Positions 3,466 through 21,809 of a DNA stretch of 43,739 bases are shown here, piece after piece. Under the pieces are notes generated by a model that worked only from the letters and a program-made list of their open reading frames with translations, searched no databases and was not told the DNA's origin. The translations under genes were made by a program, and so were the position numbers. Location of the stretch: assembly GCA_025927415.1 (NCBI GenBank), contig JAICLK010000003.1:1-43739 (forward strand), in the 5' to 3' direction. Origin of the DNA: Candidatus Saccharimonadota bacterium. Lineage in GTDB: Bacteria > Patescibacteriota > Saccharimonadia > Saccharimonadales > UBA4665. Position 1 is the stretch's first letter. Every line of letters starts with the position of its first letter.

Positions 3466-3591
3466 ACATTTAGTATAGCATTGCCAACAGAAACTTGCAC
3501 AAATCAACTTTTGTGACACTATACTTTTCGCCTTCCACGAATGTGCGTTCGTGCTGACGAGCTCGAACAGATGAAAAAGCAAGAACAAGAA

Positions 3592-3620
3592 TTGTAAATA
3601 ATATAGAATTATGTTAAAAT
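3592..3620 (+). promoter_or_regulatory. Predicted sigma70-type promoter of module A (TTGTAA-17-TAAAAT)
   Basis: TTGTAA 3592-3597, 17 nt spacer, TAAAAT 3615-3620. Confidence 0.65.
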
Positions 3621-3822
3621 TTTGCTAATCTTTGTGAGTTTGACTCCGAGGATGGAACATTGGCAAGCACACAGATACAAAGTGAGGTATATTGGTAAAC
3701 CATGTTTTTGGTTTGTTGCTACGCCTCACTTTGTGCGAGTTCATAAGGGACCGGACAACATCCTCATCATGTGGATGGAGCAGATACTGCTCGGTGTGGC
3801 GAATGAAAGGTGGCTTTTAGCC

Positions 3823-4449
3823 ATGCGATTCAACTTCAACTCCGCTCTGACGGCGCTGCCCGATGGCAAGTTCGAGGAGAAGGCGCACAACCAACTCGTG
3901 CAGCCTATCCGGCGGCACATCATGGACATCGACGGCGTCACCGGATGCAACATCCAGCGGTACTTCGTCGAAGTGCAGTTCACCAACGACGTGGTTTCGC
4001 GGGCCGAGGTAACCCAGGGGGTGCGGTTCATCTTCCAGGTGATGGCTGAGGCCCAAGAGTACAACTTCTTCCCGAACCTGGGCAACAAGACCCTCAAGGT
4101 CACGCCGGTGCAGGAGAGCCGCTCGACCAGCTATTGGGTCTACGCGGACCTGGGTACGGCACTCGTCGACTTCTTCCCGGACCACGCCAACGAAGGCTGG
4201 GACAAGCAGAAGTTCCGCGAGGTCACGGCGCCCATCGTCAACGAGATGGTCAAGCACGACGGCGTGCTCGACTACGTGATCCGACCCTTCCAGGTTGGTC
4301 TGCGAGTTGACGTCCGGGTCACCACCATCCAGGCGACGAAGGACCACCTTCGTGAGGTGCTAACCCAGGTACGCCAGCTTCTCAGTACGTATCCGTTCCT
4401 CGAGGACGACGCGGAGCTGAAGCTCAAGCTCTGGCACCGCGCCTACTAA
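3823..4449 (+). CDS. Hypothetical protein with two similar alpha/beta halves (module A cargo)
   Basis: AAAGGTGG SD about 9 nt upstream of ATG 3823; no recognised family. Internal similarity DIDGVTGCNIQRYFVEVQF..AEVTQGVRFIFQVMAEAQEYNFFP versus KHDGVLDYVIRPFQVGLRV..ATKDHLREVLTQVRQLLSTYPFLE. The ORF track begins upstream at 3622, inside the structured leader. Confidence 0.75.
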   Translation: MRFNFNSALTALPDGKFEEKAHNQLVQPIRRHIMDIDGVTGCNIQRYFVEVQFTNDVVSRAEVTQGVRFIFQVMAEAQEYNFFPNLGNKTLKVTPVQESRSTSYWVYADLGTALVDFFPDHANEGWDKQKFREVTAPIVNEMVKHDGVLDYVIRPFQVGLRVDVRVTTIQATKDHLREVLTQVRQLLSTYPFLEDDAELKLKLWHRAY

Positions 4450-4599
4450 TATTCGACACCCTCGCCGGGCGTGGCATGCTTTTACAGTGCCACGCCTCGG
4501 CGTGTCGTTTCCCCTTCCTCGCCTTTTCCTGTTCGCTGCCAATGTTCCTATTTTTTATTAACGAATGCAACAAAATTTCCTGCTCTGTCTGCCCGTGTC

Positions 4600-4649
4600 C
4601 GCTCCGTGAGTGCGTGTTCACGCTGATGAGTCCAAAAGGACGGAAAGCG
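4600..4649 (+). ncRNA. Hammerhead-ribozyme-like motif (type III topology)
   Basis: CGCT|C, stem I CGTGA(4605-4609)/TCACG(4618-4622), CTGATGA 4623-4629, stem II GTCC-AAAA-GGAC, GAAA 4643-4646, AGCG closing stem III. One extra G between stem II and GAAA. Confidence 0.6.
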
Positions 4650-4669
4650 AGCTTTATCTATAAACTGGG

Positions 4670-15206: not shown

Positions 15207-16400
15207 TTAGGCTACAAATTCGGCGCAGATGGGGCAAGATTCTTCGTGGCCCATTTCTTTGGTCCATTGTTCGGCAGCGCGCCACCATGGTTGCAGGTCG
15301 CGGAAGCCTTCGAGGTCTGCCAGCTCGCGTAACAGCCATCCTAGTCGGCCGTAGAAATGGAACCTGCCCCAGTCTACGGCAGCCCACTGTGGTCCAGCCG
15401 GAATGATAGAGACGGGTTGCTTGGCGCTGTATGTCTTCTCTTTTTTGCCTTCACTCAAGCGTACCAAGTTTTCGGCTACAAATTTGCCGTCGTGCAAGGC
15501 AGTTTGGGCCATGCCGCTGAACGGTGTGGCAGCGTTGTCGCCCAGCACGTAGATGTTCGGCTCGGCCAGCAGGTGCTCGTCTACGGTCACTTTGTGGCGG
15601 TCGTTCATGGCAAAGTTGTTGGCAGTAAAGAGCGGATTGTTTGCCATGCCGGCGGTCCAGACGACCGTGTGACTTTTGAGTGGCTGCCCGTTGATGGTGA
15701 GCGCATCGGCGGTTTCGCCCTGCACTGCCTGGCCGAGCAGCAAACGGATACCAAGCTTGCTGAGTTGCCGCCGCACCGCACGCGACGTACTCTTTGGCGC
15801 GCGCGGCAAGAGCCGTGGCGCAGCTTCAACCAAGTCGATGTGGATGGCTTTGTGCTTGATGCCGTGATTTTCCATAATCGAGCGTAAGTAGCCTGGCAAC
15901 GCGCCAGCCAGCTCTATGCCAGTCGGGCCAGCGCCAATAACAACGTAGTTGAGGTCGGGTTTGCCATCGTCGGCGAGTTGTTGGTGGAGATGCTGTTTGA
16001 AGCGCTCCACTTCCTCGACCGACTTTACGCCAAACGAGAATTCCTGGATGCCCTGAATACCGAAGTAATTCGTGACAGTACCTAAGGCCAAAATGAGTTT
16101 GTCGTACTGCAAGTTGTGTTTGCTGCGGGTTACGACGACACGTTTTTCGCGGTCAATCTTCTCGGCAAAATCCTCAACCAGTTGTACGTGCTCTGGCAGG
16201 ATTTCGCGTAGTGCAATACTAGATTGCGATCGCAAACCACCGGTCGCCGTGTGATATAGCGTGGGATAATATCGAAAATCCGGCCGGTCGCTCACCAGCG
16301 TTACGGCAAAATGTTCAGGGTGTTTGGCTAGCTCTAGGGCGGTCTTCACCCCAGCAAAGCCACCACCAATAATAAGAATGTGTTGTTTTTGATTTGTCAT
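15207..16400 (-). CDS. ndh: NAD(P)/FAD-dependent oxidoreductase, type II NADH dehydrogenase (NDH-2)
   Basis: HILIIGGGFAGVKTALEL, LGTVTNYFGIQG, YVVIGAGPTGIELAGAL, NIYVLGDNA signatures. Confidence 0.9.
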   Translation of the reverse strand: MTNQKQHILIIGGGFAGVKTALELAKHPEHFAVTLVSDRPDFRYYPTLYHTATGGLRSQSSIALREILPEHVQLVEDFAEKIDREKRVVVTRSKHNLQYDKLILALGTVTNYFGIQGIQEFSFGVKSVEEVERFKQHLHQQLADDGKPDLNYVVIGAGPTGIELAGALPGYLRSIMENHGIKHKAIHIDLVEAAPRLLPRAPKSTSRAVRRQLSKLGIRLLLGQAVQGETADALTINGQPLKSHTVVWTAGMANNPLFTANNFAMNDRHKVTVDEHLLAEPNIYVLGDNAATPFSGMAQTALHDGKFVAENLVRLSEGKKEKTYSAKQPVSIIPAGPQWAAVDWGRFHFYGRLGWLLRELADLEGFRDLQPWWRAAEQWTKEMGHEESCPICAEFVA

Positions 16401-16448
16401 AATATGGCCATTGTAACAGCATAAGCGTGTACAGCAAAACGTGCTTAC

Positions 16449-16477
16449 TTGACATAAGCAGAATGAGATGGTAATAT
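16449..16477 (+). promoter_or_regulatory. Predicted strong sigma70 promoter of module B (TTGACA-17-TAATAT)
   Basis: Consensus -35 TTGACA, 17 nt spacer, TAATAT. Confidence 0.8.
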
Positions 16478-16662
16478 ATACTCATCTTGTTAATCTTTTC
16501 AGGTTTTCGAGGTACTTTAGCAGGCAGATTTTGAAACAACTTGAGCTGAACAGCGAGGTTCTGAGAAACTCCAGAGCTTTGCTATTCATCTCGAACTTCA
16601 CTGTTCAGCTCAAAATGAGCGGACCACGCAGCTAGCGTGCAGCACGACAGAAAGGAAGCCAC

Positions 16663-17424
16663 GTGGCTACCTACGGCATGACCAGCATGAAAGGCGGCCT
16701 GCGTCGCCCGCACTTCCGGAAGGTTCAGAGCAAGGTGACCGCGGTGATTTTGGCCGTGCTTCTTGCCTCGGTCATCGGTGGCACTGCAGTAGCGGTGGCG
16801 ACGCCCGGCACGGACGAAGCAACCCATGCTCCGCCCGCCGTCGTATCCACGAGTCACATGCTTCACCAGCGAGTCCAGCGAGACGCCGTTTCGCCTTGGC
16901 ATCCGCATCGTGTCATGCATCACACCAGTAATGTCGCGCATCATGTCAGCAAGCCCACCAGCTTGCCGAAGTTGACCTGCGACAACACGACCCCGAGTAT
17001 GTGCAAGGGGTACCAATCCGCTGCGGGCTACGCTAATGGTGCGTACGCTTGGTCACAGTCGGACGCAAGTAAGCACCACTATTTCAAGTGGATCGACGTC
17101 ACGGGGGATAATTCGAAGGCGAACGTCCTCGACGTCGAGCCCGGTGACGCCACCAACGCGCAGGCGCACGACTGGGTTCAGAAGGCGCACCGTCTTCACC
17201 GCGGCGAACGCGTGTGGGTGTACACCTACAGCAGTAACGCCGAGGGCCTCAAGAAGGCCGTGTCTGGCACTCCCAACGTTGGCTTCTGGATTGCGGCTCC
17301 GTCGCAGTTCGCCGGAAACTGGAAATTCCAGGACGGCAGTCACGCCGATGCCACGCAGTACAACAACCCAAGCGCACAGACCGACATATCGGTTACCAGG
17401 CCTGCGTTCTATAGCCCCTCGTAG
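16663..17424 (+). CDS. Secreted hypothetical protein with GH25/DUF1906-like C-terminal domain (module B cargo)
   Basis: GTG start with AAAGGA SD; signal/TM segment VTAVILAVLLASVIGGTAVAV; FKWIDVTGDNSKANVLDVEPGD...WVYTYSSNAEGLK...GFWIAAP...DATQYNN resembles a GH25-like barrel. Confidence 0.65.
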   Translation: MATYGMTSMKGGLRRPHFRKVQSKVTAVILAVLLASVIGGTAVAVATPGTDEATHAPPAVVSTSHMLHQRVQRDAVSPWHPHRVMHHTSNVAHHVSKPTSLPKLTCDNTTPSMCKGYQSAAGYANGAYAWSQSDASKHHYFKWIDVTGDNSKANVLDVEPGDATNAQAHDWVQKAHRLHRGERVWVYTYSSNAEGLKKAVSGTPNVGFWIAAPSQFAGNWKFQDGSHADATQYNNPSAQTDISVTRPAFYSPS

Positions 17425-17466
17425 GCTACAAAACTTGTAGTCGACTATCCGAAAGGAGGTGCATAA

Positions 17467-17505
17467 ATGGTTTGCTGGGTGCACATGGGTGCGAAAGATT
17501 TGTGA
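17467..17505 (+). CDS. Candidate 12-aa micro-ORF (MVCWVHMGAKDL) with full-length SD
   Basis: AAAGGAGGTG at 17452-17461, ATG 17467, TGA 17503-17505. Confidence 0.3.
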   Translation: MVCWVHMGAKDL

Positions 17506-17564
17506 GCCTCTTGGCCTGCTTACCTTTCGCACCCTACGCCCACCCCTTCTGTTTCAAAATCTGC

Positions 17565-17629
17565 CATTCACTTTTCCACGAATGAACCAAGTCGTGCCGA
17601 CGAGCTGTAAACAGCGAAAAAAGTGAATG
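17565..17629 (+). ncRNA. Hammerhead-ribozyme-like motif (type III topology)
   Basis: Stem III CATTCACTTTT/AAAAGTGAATG (11 bp perfect); C17576; stem I CACGA/TCGTG; CCGACGA core (consensus CUGANGA, U4C); stem II GCTG-TAAA-CAGC; GAAA. Confidence 0.65.
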
Positions 17630-17638
17630 CGCCAGAAG

Positions 17639-17667
17639 TTGATAAAACATTGGTAAAATGATAAAAT
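17639..17667 (+). promoter_or_regulatory. Predicted sigma70 promoter of module C (TTGATA-17-TAAAAT)
   Basis: TTGATA 17639-17644, 17 nt spacer, TAAAAT 17662-17667, immediately after the hammerhead-like motif. Confidence 0.75.
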
Positions 17668-17830
17668 ATATGCGACTTTGTTGAGGCGGAAGCTTCCAAA
17701 GCACCTTAACAAGCAGATTTTGAAACATACGTATGAGATGACAGCGAGCTGACGAGCTTCGTCGGTTTACTGTCATCTCATACAGAGAGATCACGCAGCC
17801 AGCGTGTGGCTATACCAGGCAAGGAGTACC

Positions 17831-18205
17831 ATGAACGTGAAGTTCAAGAGGACCATCGCAATCGCGGCTGCAGGCGCAGCCATCGGCCTTGCGGCATCGG
17901 CATGCACGGTGTCGCCGTCGCTCCCACCGACTCCGCAGCAAAGCCTAGTGGCAGCACTGCGGAATCTACCTGGCGTTACCGCTAGGGTAGCGGGATCAGT
18001 AGTGTACGCCGAAGACGGCTACGAGCAATGGGTGTGCGTTCCCGGCGACAAGCCTGAGCAGTATTCTGCGACGCAACGGAGCATCGTGTTCTTCGTCCTT
18101 TATGGATATGCATGTGACAGCACCAATCCATCAGCGGACGTGCAGTACTTCGCCAACAGTGTGGGCGGCACGATTCGCACCTACACCTACACGGTGAAGC
18201 GGTAA
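17831..18205 (+). CDS. Putative lipoprotein (module C)
   Basis: AAGGAG SD; MNVKFKRTIAIAAAGAAIGLAASAC lipobox. Confidence 0.7.
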   Translation: MNVKFKRTIAIAAAGAAIGLAASACTVSPSLPPTPQQSLVAALRNLPGVTARVAGSVVYAEDGYEQWVCVPGDKPEQYSATQRSIVFFVLYGYACDSTNPSADVQYFANSVGGTIRTYTYTVKR

Positions 18206-18249
18206 AAGACACCCGATCCATCCCTACGACTCCAGCAAGGAGAGGTTCC

Positions 18250-19008
18250 ATGCACGTCATCGACAATCCCAACATGCTGTTGTACATCGAGCCGACCGGC
18301 CCTGTCAGCGGCGAACCCGTCGACGACGAGCTGACGCTCAAGATGCGCGTGGTGTTCGCCAAGGCGGTTCCGACTGGCGAGGTCTACGAGGAATTCCATC
18401 GCTGCACTTCCTGCGGTGAGAAGAGCACCAACACGGACTACATCCTGCCTGGCGGGATGCAGACCAACTCCCTGTGCGTGCACTACCTCGAGCGTCACCG
18501 CGATGAGGTGCCCAAGAGCGAGCTCGCCAAGGTGGAGGCGCTGGACGTCGAGACCGACGACCTGTACTACTGCGCCGACGAGCGCAACGAGACGAGGTGG
18601 TCCAACTACGAATTCCTCGGTCCCGAGGAGGACTATTTCGGGAACTGGGACCACGTGCAGGAGTACCCGCTGCCACCACTGCAACCTATTGGCAAAGAAG
18701 GCGAGTTCCCCCTATTCCCTCCGCCGTTGCACTTCTACGACGAGGAATACGAGTGGCCGAACCTCAACAAGTCGCTGCCCGAGCTCAACAGGACCGAGCT
18801 TCTTGGCGACGGTCTCATCGAGCGCTTGATCGCCAGGTTCGACGAGTCACGCAGGCGCAAGCCGAACAGGGACCCGCACCGGTGGCCGCTGCACAGGTTC
18901 GACGACCTCATCAGCCGCTCCATCGGCGACCTGCGCCCCAAGCACATCGAGCCCGAACGAACCACCGACCCCGACGAAACCTCGCCGGACGACCCAACAG
19001 AGCGCTAA
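18250..19008 (+). CDS. Hypothetical protein with CTSCGEK zinc-knuckle-like motif (module C)
   Basis: CAAGGAGAGG SD; CTSCGEKSTNTDYILPGGMQTNSLCVHYLERHR. Confidence 0.7.
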   Translation: MHVIDNPNMLLYIEPTGPVSGEPVDDELTLKMRVVFAKAVPTGEVYEEFHRCTSCGEKSTNTDYILPGGMQTNSLCVHYLERHRDEVPKSELAKVEALDVETDDLYYCADERNETRWSNYEFLGPEEDYFGNWDHVQEYPLPPLQPIGKEGEFPLFPPPLHFYDEEYEWPNLNKSLPELNRTELLGDGLIERLIARFDESRRRKPNRDPHRWPLHRFDDLISRSIGDLRPKHIEPERTTDPDETSPDDPTER

Positions 19009-19042
19009 CCAGCGCACAACTCGAAGGAGCAAGGAGGCGCTT

Positions 19043-19438
19043 ATGCGCAAGGTCGTCGAAGTCGTGGAGTTTCACGAGCCCCTTCCGGGTTCGGAACTCA
19101 TCGACTATATCATCCGGTCCGCCGAGCGAACGCCTTATGCTGAGCTCCAGCTCACAGAGGAGATCGTCGGCGACATCGTGGTGGTGAGCATCGGTCTCAA
19201 GTCGGCAACGTACCCGGAGTGGAACATTCGCGTCCAGCTCAACGATGACTGGCCGATCATCTTCCACGACCGGGATTACGGCCGAGCCGAGATCATGCAC
19301 TACTTCTGGGAGGAACAGGGCGTCGTCGACACCCACTTGTTCAACAGCGTACTTGCCTGGGCGGCCACCCAGCTGCTCGGGACGAGTATCAGGACCCAGT
19401 ACCTGCTGCGTCACGGCACCGCCGTCACCAGGAGGTGA
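19043..19438 (+). CDS. Hypothetical protein (module C)
   Basis: GAAGGAGCAAGGAGG SD, GC-rich codon use matching neighbours; no recognised family. Confidence 0.65.
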   Translation: MRKVVEVVEFHEPLPGSELIDYIIRSAERTPYAELQLTEEIVGDIVVVSIGLKSATYPEWNIRVQLNDDWPIIFHDRDYGRAEIMHYFWEEQGVVDTHLFNSVLAWAATQLLGTSIRTQYLLRHGTAVTRR

Positions 19439-19442
19439 GGCA

Positions 19443-19556
19443 TTGATCTCGCTGACGCAGGTCATCACTACCATAGCGGTGGACCTTGTGTTCATCGGCC
19501 TTGCTGTAGTGGCGATATGTCTCAGGCGGCGTCTCAGGCGCAATCGCTCGGAGTAG
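19443..19556 (+). CDS. Small single-TM protein (module C)
   Basis: TTG start 7 nt after GGAGG; MISLTQVITTIAVDLVFIGLAVVAICLRRRLRRNRSE. Confidence 0.45.
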   Translation: MISLTQVITTIAVDLVFIGLAVVAICLRRRLRRNRSE

Positions 19557-19590
19557 TGTCACTCCAACATCACCATTGAGGAGGTGAAAC

Positions 19591-19884
19591 ATGGAGGTGG
19601 TAAAGTGTACCATCGTCAACATCACCGAGGCAGCCGCTGAATGGCTGGCTACACTCATCGCTGATGATGGGCGCGAGGGACTCAGGCTTCGCCTGTCGCT
19701 GCAGGGTCGAGCGTTGATGGTCAACCTGGATAACCGTAACTGGCCGGGCGATATCGTCGACTCCTCCAATGGCATCGCGGTTGTGGTCAACTGCGCGCAC
19801 ATCGATCTTCTGGTCGGTACGACCATTGGGTTCGTCCAAAACGGTGACGAGGTGGGGCTGAGTTTCTACGCACCTAGGCTGTGA
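19591..19884 (+). CDS. HesB/IscA-fold-like protein lacking the cluster cysteines (module C)
   Basis: GAGGAGGTG SD; ITEAAAEWLATLIADDGREGLRLRLSLQG...GIAVVVNCAHIDLLVGTTIGFVQNGDEVGLSFYAP follows the A-type carrier pattern without CxnCGC. Confidence 0.55.
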   Translation: MEVVKCTIVNITEAAAEWLATLIADDGREGLRLRLSLQGRALMVNLDNRNWPGDIVDSSNGIAVVVNCAHIDLLVGTTIGFVQNGDEVGLSFYAPRL

Positions 19885-20144
19885 GTCGGCGCTAGGGCGC
19901 GGGAGACTTGGTGGCTACGGCTACCTCGAACTTCCGCGCCCCGCGCGCCCTCTCCCCAAAAAATGTTTCAAAATCTGCTGTTCTCTCTATAACTTATGAA
20001 TGTGTGGCGATAATTCGACCGAGCAGGGAGAATTATATGATGAGCCCGAGCGAGCCCTACTTATGAATAATAGCGAGCCTGGCGTGAAGCTACAAAAGGC
20101 GACCAACTCTTGCGTTCTAACAGCGAAACACTTAAGCTAATGGC

Positions 20145-21809
20145 ATGGATGATATAAAACAAACACTAGATAAACTTGGTTTTGCGGGCGAGCTGGAAGA
20201 CTCAGCCGAGATGCTGCAATTTTACAGCCACGACGCCAGCATGTTCGAGCTCAAGCCGCAGCTGGTGCTCATGCCTAAAAACGCTAGCGACGTCGAAAAA
20301 ATCGTTGGCTTGGTAGCGGAAAAGAAAAAGTCGATGCCGCACCTCAGCGTTACAGCACGCAGCGCCGGCACCGACATGAGCGGCGGCGCTATCAACGATT
20401 CCATCATTGTCGACTTCAACAAGCATCTCACAAAAATTGAAACTGTCTCGAGCAGCGAAGCTCACGCCCAGCCCGGCGTGTTTTACCGCGACTTCGAAAA
20501 AGAAACGCTGAAGCACCAAGCACTGATGCCGTCCTACCCTGCCTCGCGCGACTTGTGCACCATCGGTGGCATGGTCAACAACAACTCGGGCGGCGAAAAA
20601 TCGCTGGAGTTTGGCAAAACGGAAAATTACGTCAGCAAGCTGAAGTTCGTGTTTGCCGATGGCGTGGAGCGCACGGTCAAGCCGCTCAACAAAGCCGAAC
20701 TGGTGAAGAAAATGGGCCAAAAAGATTTTGAAGGCCGTGTCTACAAAGAGGTTTTCGAGCTGTGCGAAAAGCACTATGACAAAATCAAAGCCGCCAAGCC
20801 GAACGTTACCAAGAACTCAACTGGTTATAATTTATGGGACGTTTGGGACCGCGAAACTGGCGTGTTCAATCTGTGCAACTTGATTGTCGGCGCCCAAGGC
20901 ACGCTTGGTTTTGTAACCGACATTCACTTCAAGCTGGTGCCGCACCGGCCGCACTCTGGCCTGTTGGTGCTCTTCTTGCGTGACATGGATGCACTCGGCG
21001 AAATTATTCCGAAAGTTCTGGAAAGCAAACCGGCGACCTTTGAAAGTTTCGATGACGCCACGCTGCTGCTGAGCCTCCGTTTTATGCCAAGCTTCCTGAA
21101 AATGCTGGGCCTCCTGAGGTTCATTCACCTTTTGATCAGCCTCATCCCCGATGGCTTGCAATTGTTGCGCGGCATTCCGAAACTCATTCTAATGATCGAA
21201 TTCAACGGCGAAACCGAAGACGAAGTGCGCCAGAAAATCAAAACCTTGCACCGCGAATTGAAAAAACACAAAGCCCGCTACGAAATTAACGGTTTTGAAG
21301 AGACACCGACCGAAGGCAAAAGCGAGAAGTTCTGGCTGATGCGCCGTCAAAGCTTCAACCTGCTTCGCAGCAAAGTGAAGGACAAGCACACCGCGCCGTT
21401 CATCGACGACTTGGTCGTGAACCCGCCTTACCTTACCGAATTTTTGCCGAAAATCCGCAAGATTATCAAAAAGTACGACCTGCTGGCGACAGTTGCCGGC
21501 CACATGGGCGATGGCAACTTTCACATCATCCCACTCATGAAGCTGGAAGATCCAAAAGATCGCGCCAAATTGTTGCCCGCCATGAAGGAAGTCGACAGTC
21601 TGGTGCTGAAATACAAAGGCAGTTTGAGTGGCGAGCACAACGATGGTTTAGTGCGCGGCCCGTGGCTGGAGCAAATGTATGGCAAGGAAGTGCTGCACCT
21701 TTTCCAGGAAGCCAAGCAGATTATGGACCCCGACGGCATCTTCAATCCGCATAAAAAAGCCAACGCGGATTGGGATTATTCCTTCAGCCACATCCGGCAG
21801 TCATTCTAG
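20145..21809 (+). CDS. FAD-binding oxidoreductase (GlcD/D-lactate dehydrogenase-like)
   Basis: ARSAGTDMSGGAINDSIIVDF, GGMVNNNSGGEKSLEFGKTENYV, GHMGDGNFHIIPL, SGEHNDGLVRGPWLEQMYG. Confidence 0.9.
   Translation: MDDIKQTLDKLGFAGELEDSAEMLQFYSHDASMFELKPQLVLMPKNASDVEKIVGLVAEKKKSMPHLSVTARSAGTDMSGGAINDSIIVDFNKHLTKIETVSSSEAHAQPGVFYRDFEKETLKHQALMPSYPASRDLCTIGGMVNNNSGGEKSLEFGKTENYVSKLKFVFADGVERTVKPLNKAELVKKMGQKDFEGRVYKEVFELCEKHYDKIKAAKPNVTKNSTGYNLWDVWDRETGVFNLCNLIVGAQGTLGFVTDIHFKLVPHRPHSGLLVLFLRDMDALGEIIPKVLESKPATFESFDDATLLLSLRFMPSFLKMLGLLRFIHLLISLIPDGLQLLRGIPKLILMIEFNGETEDEVRQKIKTLHRELKKHKARYEINGFEETPTEGKSEKFWLMRRQSFNLLRSKVKDKHTAPFIDDLVVNPPYLTEFLPKIRKIIKKYDLLATVAGHMGDGNFHIIPLMKLEDPKDRAKLLPAMKEVDSLVLKYKGSLSGEHNDGLVRGPWLEQMYGKEVLHLFQEAKQIMDPDGIFNPHKKANADWDYSFSHIRQSF

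Follow-up and report, generated by a model that had tools for sequence, protein, structure and literature searches.

Sequence comparison across relatives indicates that many Saccharibacteria, very small bacteria of a candidate phylum, carry a family-wide gene cassette, and that the pair of units from which we started is not a local oddity. Each unit has the same order of parts: a sigma-70 promoter, a hairpin at the 5' end, a short arm, a long hairpin, small ORFs, a 3' hairpin and an arm complementary to the first, with a type III hammerhead ribozyme usually following 0–4 nt further on. The promoter, hairpins, covarying arms and hammerheads, together with their order and spacing, are well supported at the level of sequence, and from them we infer cutting, clamping in the cell and a benefit to stability. 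On balance we favour the reading that the cassette mRNA is trimmed by its ribozyme and has its ends clamped together, probably for stability.

Organisation of the modules

The window (the whole 43,739 nt stretch of Candidatus Saccharimonadota bacterium contig JAICLK010000003.1 that we analysed) contains two tandem units, module B followed by module C, which occupy positions 16440–20145 and are flanked by an NADH dehydrogenase-like gene on the minus strand and a FAD-linked oxidase gene; all window features given below are on the + strand. The module C promoter proposed in an earlier sequence-only reading of this DNA (TTGATA-17-TAAAAT) is found at 17639–17667, with a TG ahead of the -10 box and a geometry that is kept across leaders, and from its position transcription is predicted to start at about 17675. 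This position opens a 5'-terminal hairpin, HP1 (ACUUUG...CAAAGC; 17675–17702), recognised with leader model R2, which matches module C at 17659–17729 (E 3e-15). The leader arm (17712–17728) is perfectly complementary over 17 bp to the trailer arm (19963–19979), so that the pairing claimed earlier is borne out at 100% complementarity, and the arms enclose the five ORFs that had been noted, each with a ribosome-binding site. Immediately downstream of the leader arm is the long hairpin HP2 (17731–17783), whose strands extend over 17731–17755 and 17759–17783 and include the hairpin first described, followed by the small hairpin CACGC-AGCCA-GCGTG (17792–17806), which is also present in modules B and D1. 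A further hairpin, HP3 (19884–19958; folding z -5.5), precedes the trailer arm. The coordinates originally given for modules B and C were correct to within one base.

A 15-mer from the module C arm has nine matches in the window at three or fewer mismatches, a number that no shuffle out of 100 attained; it occurs exactly four times, each time in a module B or C arm. As these arms have 15 nt in common, cross-pairing between the two modules is possible in principle, as had been suggested, but it is no general feature, the arms of most modules being different. Separate promoters or termini inside module C were not found: there are just two promoter-like sites on the + strand of 16400–20200, one for each module, and no convincing internal terminator in the module B and C region (one weak match compared with 3.5 expected in shuffles). 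No hammerhead is recognisable after the module C trailer (best 2.8 bits with filters off), and judged by its sequence module C is a family member with an intact clamp whose ribozyme appears to have been lost or replaced.

Module B has a promoter (TTGACA-17-TAATAT; 16449–16477), a leader arm (16523–16538) and a trailer arm (17550–17565) which pair over 16 nt, and a single cargo ORF of 253 aa with a secreted-protein-like N terminus (16663–17424). What had been called a hammerhead-like motif at its end proves to have the fold of a type III hammerhead, its helices intact throughout (17565–17629 by alignment; model R3 match at 17569–17625, E 4e-16) and a predicted cut between 17576 and 17577. The core C3-C4(U4C)-G5-A6 at 17597–17600 departs from consensus in the U4C change alone. 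Eight of the 106 hammerheads have this change and are otherwise intact (L054, L056, L109, L139, L150, L157, L160 and position 17598 of the window). U4C is slow in vitro, yet in vivo activity is sufficient for viroid infectivity (Perreault et al., PMC3088659). Since the change recurs here and a viroid carrying it stays infectious, the module B ribozyme may, by analogy, be able to cleave.

The third unit of the window, module A (3612–4652), has a leader at 3612–3681 (R2, E 3e-4) and a hammerhead at 4597–4652 (R3, E 2e-14) whose core carries one extra base. An apparently decayed hammerhead with no leader upstream is located at 3528–3582 (R3, E 3e-9), and no arm was found for it. We note that the hammerheads at 3528–3582 and 4597–4652 bracket a cargo gene at about 3823–4449.

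Distribution amongst the Saccharibacteria

The arm motif was found again in the same genome at C9, which carries the tandem units D1 and D2, and at C4, and these units have the leader and long hairpin in common. Both D2 and C4 have a canonical type III hammerhead after the trailer, and none was detected for D1. Their arms are of other sequence and are still complementary (CATTGACA(A)GCAGAC/GTCTGCTGTCAATG for D2 and GCAGAC..GAAACA/TGTTTC..GTCTGC for C4). Leader and ribozyme models were needed to follow the cassette further because a first motif search in relatives returned only a chance match within a sugar-kinase-like gene. With R1, a covariance model built on five leaders, matches at E≤1 were obtained in 39 of the 120 related genomes examined; a single genome may hold as many as 15 copies, often in arrays. 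A strict structural scan of the fetched loci, made independently of R1, identified 29 distinct type III hammerheads, compared with 0 in an equal-size Markov control. The hammerhead model R3 built from these matched 42 of the 120 genomes, of which G001 has 29 copies and the present genome 11. In a sample of 389 genomes of the phylum R3 had matches in 44, for the most part one per genome.

The 83 fetched loci contain 106 hammerheads and 78 leaders. The hammerhead core is intact in 95 of the 106 model matches (CUGANGA...GAAA, three helices, open at stem III), and 95% of helix cells are paired with many double changes, although the rows were picked by pairing and this covariation table is therefore partly circular, which the arm tests described below are not. 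Rfam Hammerhead_3 finds the same sites in permissive searches of other loci with E down to 3.6e-7, at scores of 28–44 bits which do not reach the gathering cut-off of 48.5, and at the standard threshold no such element is reported in the window or in nine module-bearing loci.

A leader pattern scan of GTDB genomes returned 14 stretches, mostly titled Candidatus Saccharibacteria. The common forms of the leader and hammerhead strings were absent from viral contigs, and no signal of a prophage setting was seen for the modules. Significant arms in the phylum draw were found in class or order relatives only (L186, L195 and, weakly, L188) and in none of the remaining sampled Patescibacteria, and the hammerhead is thus more widely distributed than the clamp. 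Two loci from other Patescibacteria (L181, G247:C16, and L183, G293:C32) have hammerhead arrays without significant arms. It should also be noted that L225 and L235 (JARKOY010000044.1 and JARKOY010000047.1) are short contigs assigned to a Spirochaetia MAG, in which near-identical module leaders and trailers enclose diverged paralogous cargo; they are probably misbinned Saccharibacteria.

Complementary arms and constant geometry

For 53 hammerheads a same-strand leader was located 5' of the ribozyme and not separated from it by a further hammerhead, at a median distance of 703 nt (range 460–2513). The arms of these 53 modules scored a mean of 23.1 with their own trailer and 14.35 with exchanged partners (200 shuffles, SD 0.43, highest 15.4), with the trailer sequence never used as a selection criterion. 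In these statistics, and in those that follow, loci of one genome are counted separately although they are not independent. When the leader model was ignored altogether, an upstream complement at p≤0.01 was found for 42 of 105 hammerheads and for 1 of 105 random positions. The other 63 of the 105 have no significant arm within 3.5 kb, and about half of the hammerheads are without a detectable leader. Several arms that are unlike the consensus in sequence still pair. The proposal of a polycistronic cassette with paired leader and trailer is therefore backed by homologous loci, where diverged arms are still complementary and an absence of pairing was not found, and the pairing may form in the cell. 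Arm mismatches are A.C as often as G.U (13 and 11, with no G.U bias), and for this reason arm conservation alone is no proof of selection on RNA; the RNA-level argument is carried by the mRNA context and the adjoining self-cleaving motif and not by the arms alone.

The spacing of the other elements is similarly constant. Of the 54 leaders scored, 43 have their -35 and -10 boxes 17 nt apart and 43 have HP1 starting 7–8 nt past the -10 box, from which the transcript should begin at HP1 itself. HP1 also covaries, which is supportive only, as the alignment was fitted to the model. Of the 53 modules, 45 have HP2, with a mean z of -4.7, and the HP3 region ahead of the trailer arm has a mean z of -2.1 compared with -0.4 in mid-cargo. 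When the two UTRs of a unit are joined, the predicted fold has the arms paired for B, C and L235, and in tandem arrays the next -10 box begins 24–59 nt past the hammerhead. The sequence-only reading was incomplete, having overlooked the real hammerheads that end most modules, the further constant hairpins and the family-wide spread of the cassette. We considered whether the leader holds another self-cleaving ribozyme and dropped the idea, because the conserved leader starts at the predicted transcription start.

Cargo genes and alternative explanations

The five ORFs of module C are predicted to encode a lipoprotein-like protein of 124 aa (ORF1, 17831–18205), proteins of 252 and 131 aa with no family (ORF2, 18250–19008, and ORF3, 19043–19438), a membrane-like protein of 37 aa with a TTG start (ORF4, 19443–19556) and a protein of 97 aa (ORF5, 19591–19884) that is weakly HesB/IscA-like and under the Pfam cut-off. 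The N-terminal 98 residues of ORF2 (18250–18543) share 32–36% identity with proteins of the huge phages LR745206.1 and LR756501.1, and no such hammerheads were found in these phages. Across 66 units there are 93 predicted ORFs, which are short and mostly without a known family: ten Pfam families were matched among 66 cargo proteins (including Fe-S_biosyn, DUF2807, Nfu_N, Band_7 and TspO), 37 of 85 have a membrane-like stretch, PHROG matches are few, and there is no common pathway.

Cargo genes are unusual in their codon usage, with GC3 above the locus background in 21 of 22 genomes, low-GC genomes included. In each of 19 comparisons from 18 genomes it was higher than that of the background and also than that of rplB-region genes (means of 0.72, 0.49 and 0.46 for cargo, background and rplB-region genes, respectively). 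In the window, cargo codons have TTC:TTT at 38:1 and AAG:AAA at 36:3. Codon optimisation of the ribosomal-protein kind was tested as an explanation and is unsupported. The raised GC3 may reflect a foreign origin of the genes, selection that favours structured or RNase-poor RNA, or use in a special setting.

One alternative is that the units are mobile DNA cassettes in which the arms are inverted repeats read as DNA and a passenger ribozyme limits the effect on neighbouring genes. DNA mobility of the units is plausible, and the atypical cargo GC3, the tandem arrays, the lack of wobble bias in arm mismatches and a unit that adjoins an apparent tmRNA gene in G084 (L164, 5389–6660; G073, G025 and G091 are without it) are all consistent with it. 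However, the arms are not terminal, since the promoter and HP1 are outside one and the hammerhead outside the other, and a single genome holds differing arms, which is incompatible with a sequence-specific recombinase. The cargo families identified include neither a transposase nor a recombinase, and an exact junction was not seen in a comparison of congeners. We consider this explanation of the arms unlikely, though it is the strongest of the alternatives.

Somewhat less likely again is a leader switch, in which pairing of arm and trailer, or a ligand or protein acting on HP1 or HP2, controls hammerhead cleavage or translation. The positions of the parts would allow this, as the trailer arm is 0–4 nt from ribozyme stem III and HP2 is immediately 5' of the first ribosome-binding site, but the arms are clear of both the ribosome-binding site and the ribozyme core, a conserved alternative fold was not seen, and the cargo genes have no pathway in common. 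Two leaders weakly resemble Rfam RAGATH-10 (RF03147; 38.9 and 33.5 bits compared with a gathering cut-off of 41.2), an RNA of unknown function which was not detected in the window. Only the region from about where HP2 ends up to the first ORF is matched, and as the match overlaps two leaders just under the cut-off, part of the architecture may already be named.

Relation to known systems

Bacterial hammerheads beside small gene sets are known and their purpose is an open question (PMC3088659, PMC6155905). In prophages they flank single genes or short blocks, and processing into gene-length mRNAs has been proposed (Perreault et al. 2011, PMC3088659). Those clusters resemble the units described here in having hammerheads by small, non-constant genes, often several together (PMC3088659), but the Saccharibacteria units have their own promoter, a 5'-terminal hairpin and covarying leader and trailer arms, and they are set in chromosomes with no prophage signal. 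The fold and core are those of the viroid-like satellite RNA type III hammerhead (RF00008), the viroid U4C variant included, whereas the module hammerheads are found at the 3' end of protein-coding mRNAs and score under the Rfam gathering cut-off. Pairing of an mRNA leader and trailer has a precedent in Staphylococcus aureus icaR, where it covers the ribosome-binding site of one gene; the module clamp, by comparison, avoids the ribosome-binding site and recurs on many unrelated genes.

Retrozymes are likewise repeated genomic elements with type III hammerheads (PMC6155905), but a retrozyme unit lies between two hammerheads and spreads by reverse transcription, whereas the modules are protein-coding and promoter-driven with one hammerhead each. 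It is very improbable that the transcript is instead cut and ligated to a circle that spreads or works as circRNA, even though plant retrozymes and satellite RNAs do use type III hammerheads for this (PMC6155905) and the arms would draw the ends together, because there is a single hammerhead per unit, the 5' end is made by the promoter, the RtcB ligase is missing from 14 of 15 carrier genomes and, for retrotransposition, reverse transcriptase (PF00078) is missing from 12 of the 15.

Our search of the literature, chiefly of openly accessible papers, found none joining hammerhead ribozymes with Saccharibacteria or Patescibacteria. What we regard as new is the clamp and the logic of the cassette, bacterial hammerheads by small genes being already known.

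Proposed mechanism and significance

A ribozyme-trimmed and clamped mRNA is the simplest interpretation in which all constant parts of the cassette have a role. Transcription would start on the first base of the 5'-terminal hairpin, after which RNA polymerase would copy the arm, HP2, the ORFs, HP3, the complementary arm and the type III hammerhead. The hammerhead would then cut roughly 8–12 nt past the trailer arm, so that the mRNA 3' end would be produced by a ribozyme rather than a terminator. Once paired, the arms would form a duplex that makes up one compact clamp with the 5' hairpin and adjacent hairpins and joins the ends, leaving neither a single-stranded 5' end nor a free 3'-OH tail open to the usual RNases, and with no exposed ends the message should live long. 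Module B would retain a U4C ribozyme and module C the clamp without one, and, to judge by module C, a unit can do without its ribozyme. The need for the arms to meet across 0.5–2.5 kb of translated RNA counts against the clamp. As for the cargo GC3, which exceeds even that of ribosomal-protein genes, it may be that durable RNA is selected for or that the genes are used outside the normal expression programme.

This architecture offers a concrete and testable idea of what bacterial hammerheads do, as the design predicts exact 5' and 3' ends, a half-life that depends on the arms and rescue by compensatory mutation, and if true, it would be usable for durable mRNAs in laboratory bacteria. The promoter-to-ribozyme cassettes of the Saccharibacteria may represent an undescribed class of bacterial mRNA, of hammerhead-cut, clamped, quasi-circular and long-lived messages, though we stop a little short of calling this probable. 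If it is true, some bacteria would form the 3' ends of their mRNAs by ribozyme and shield them by end-to-end pairing.
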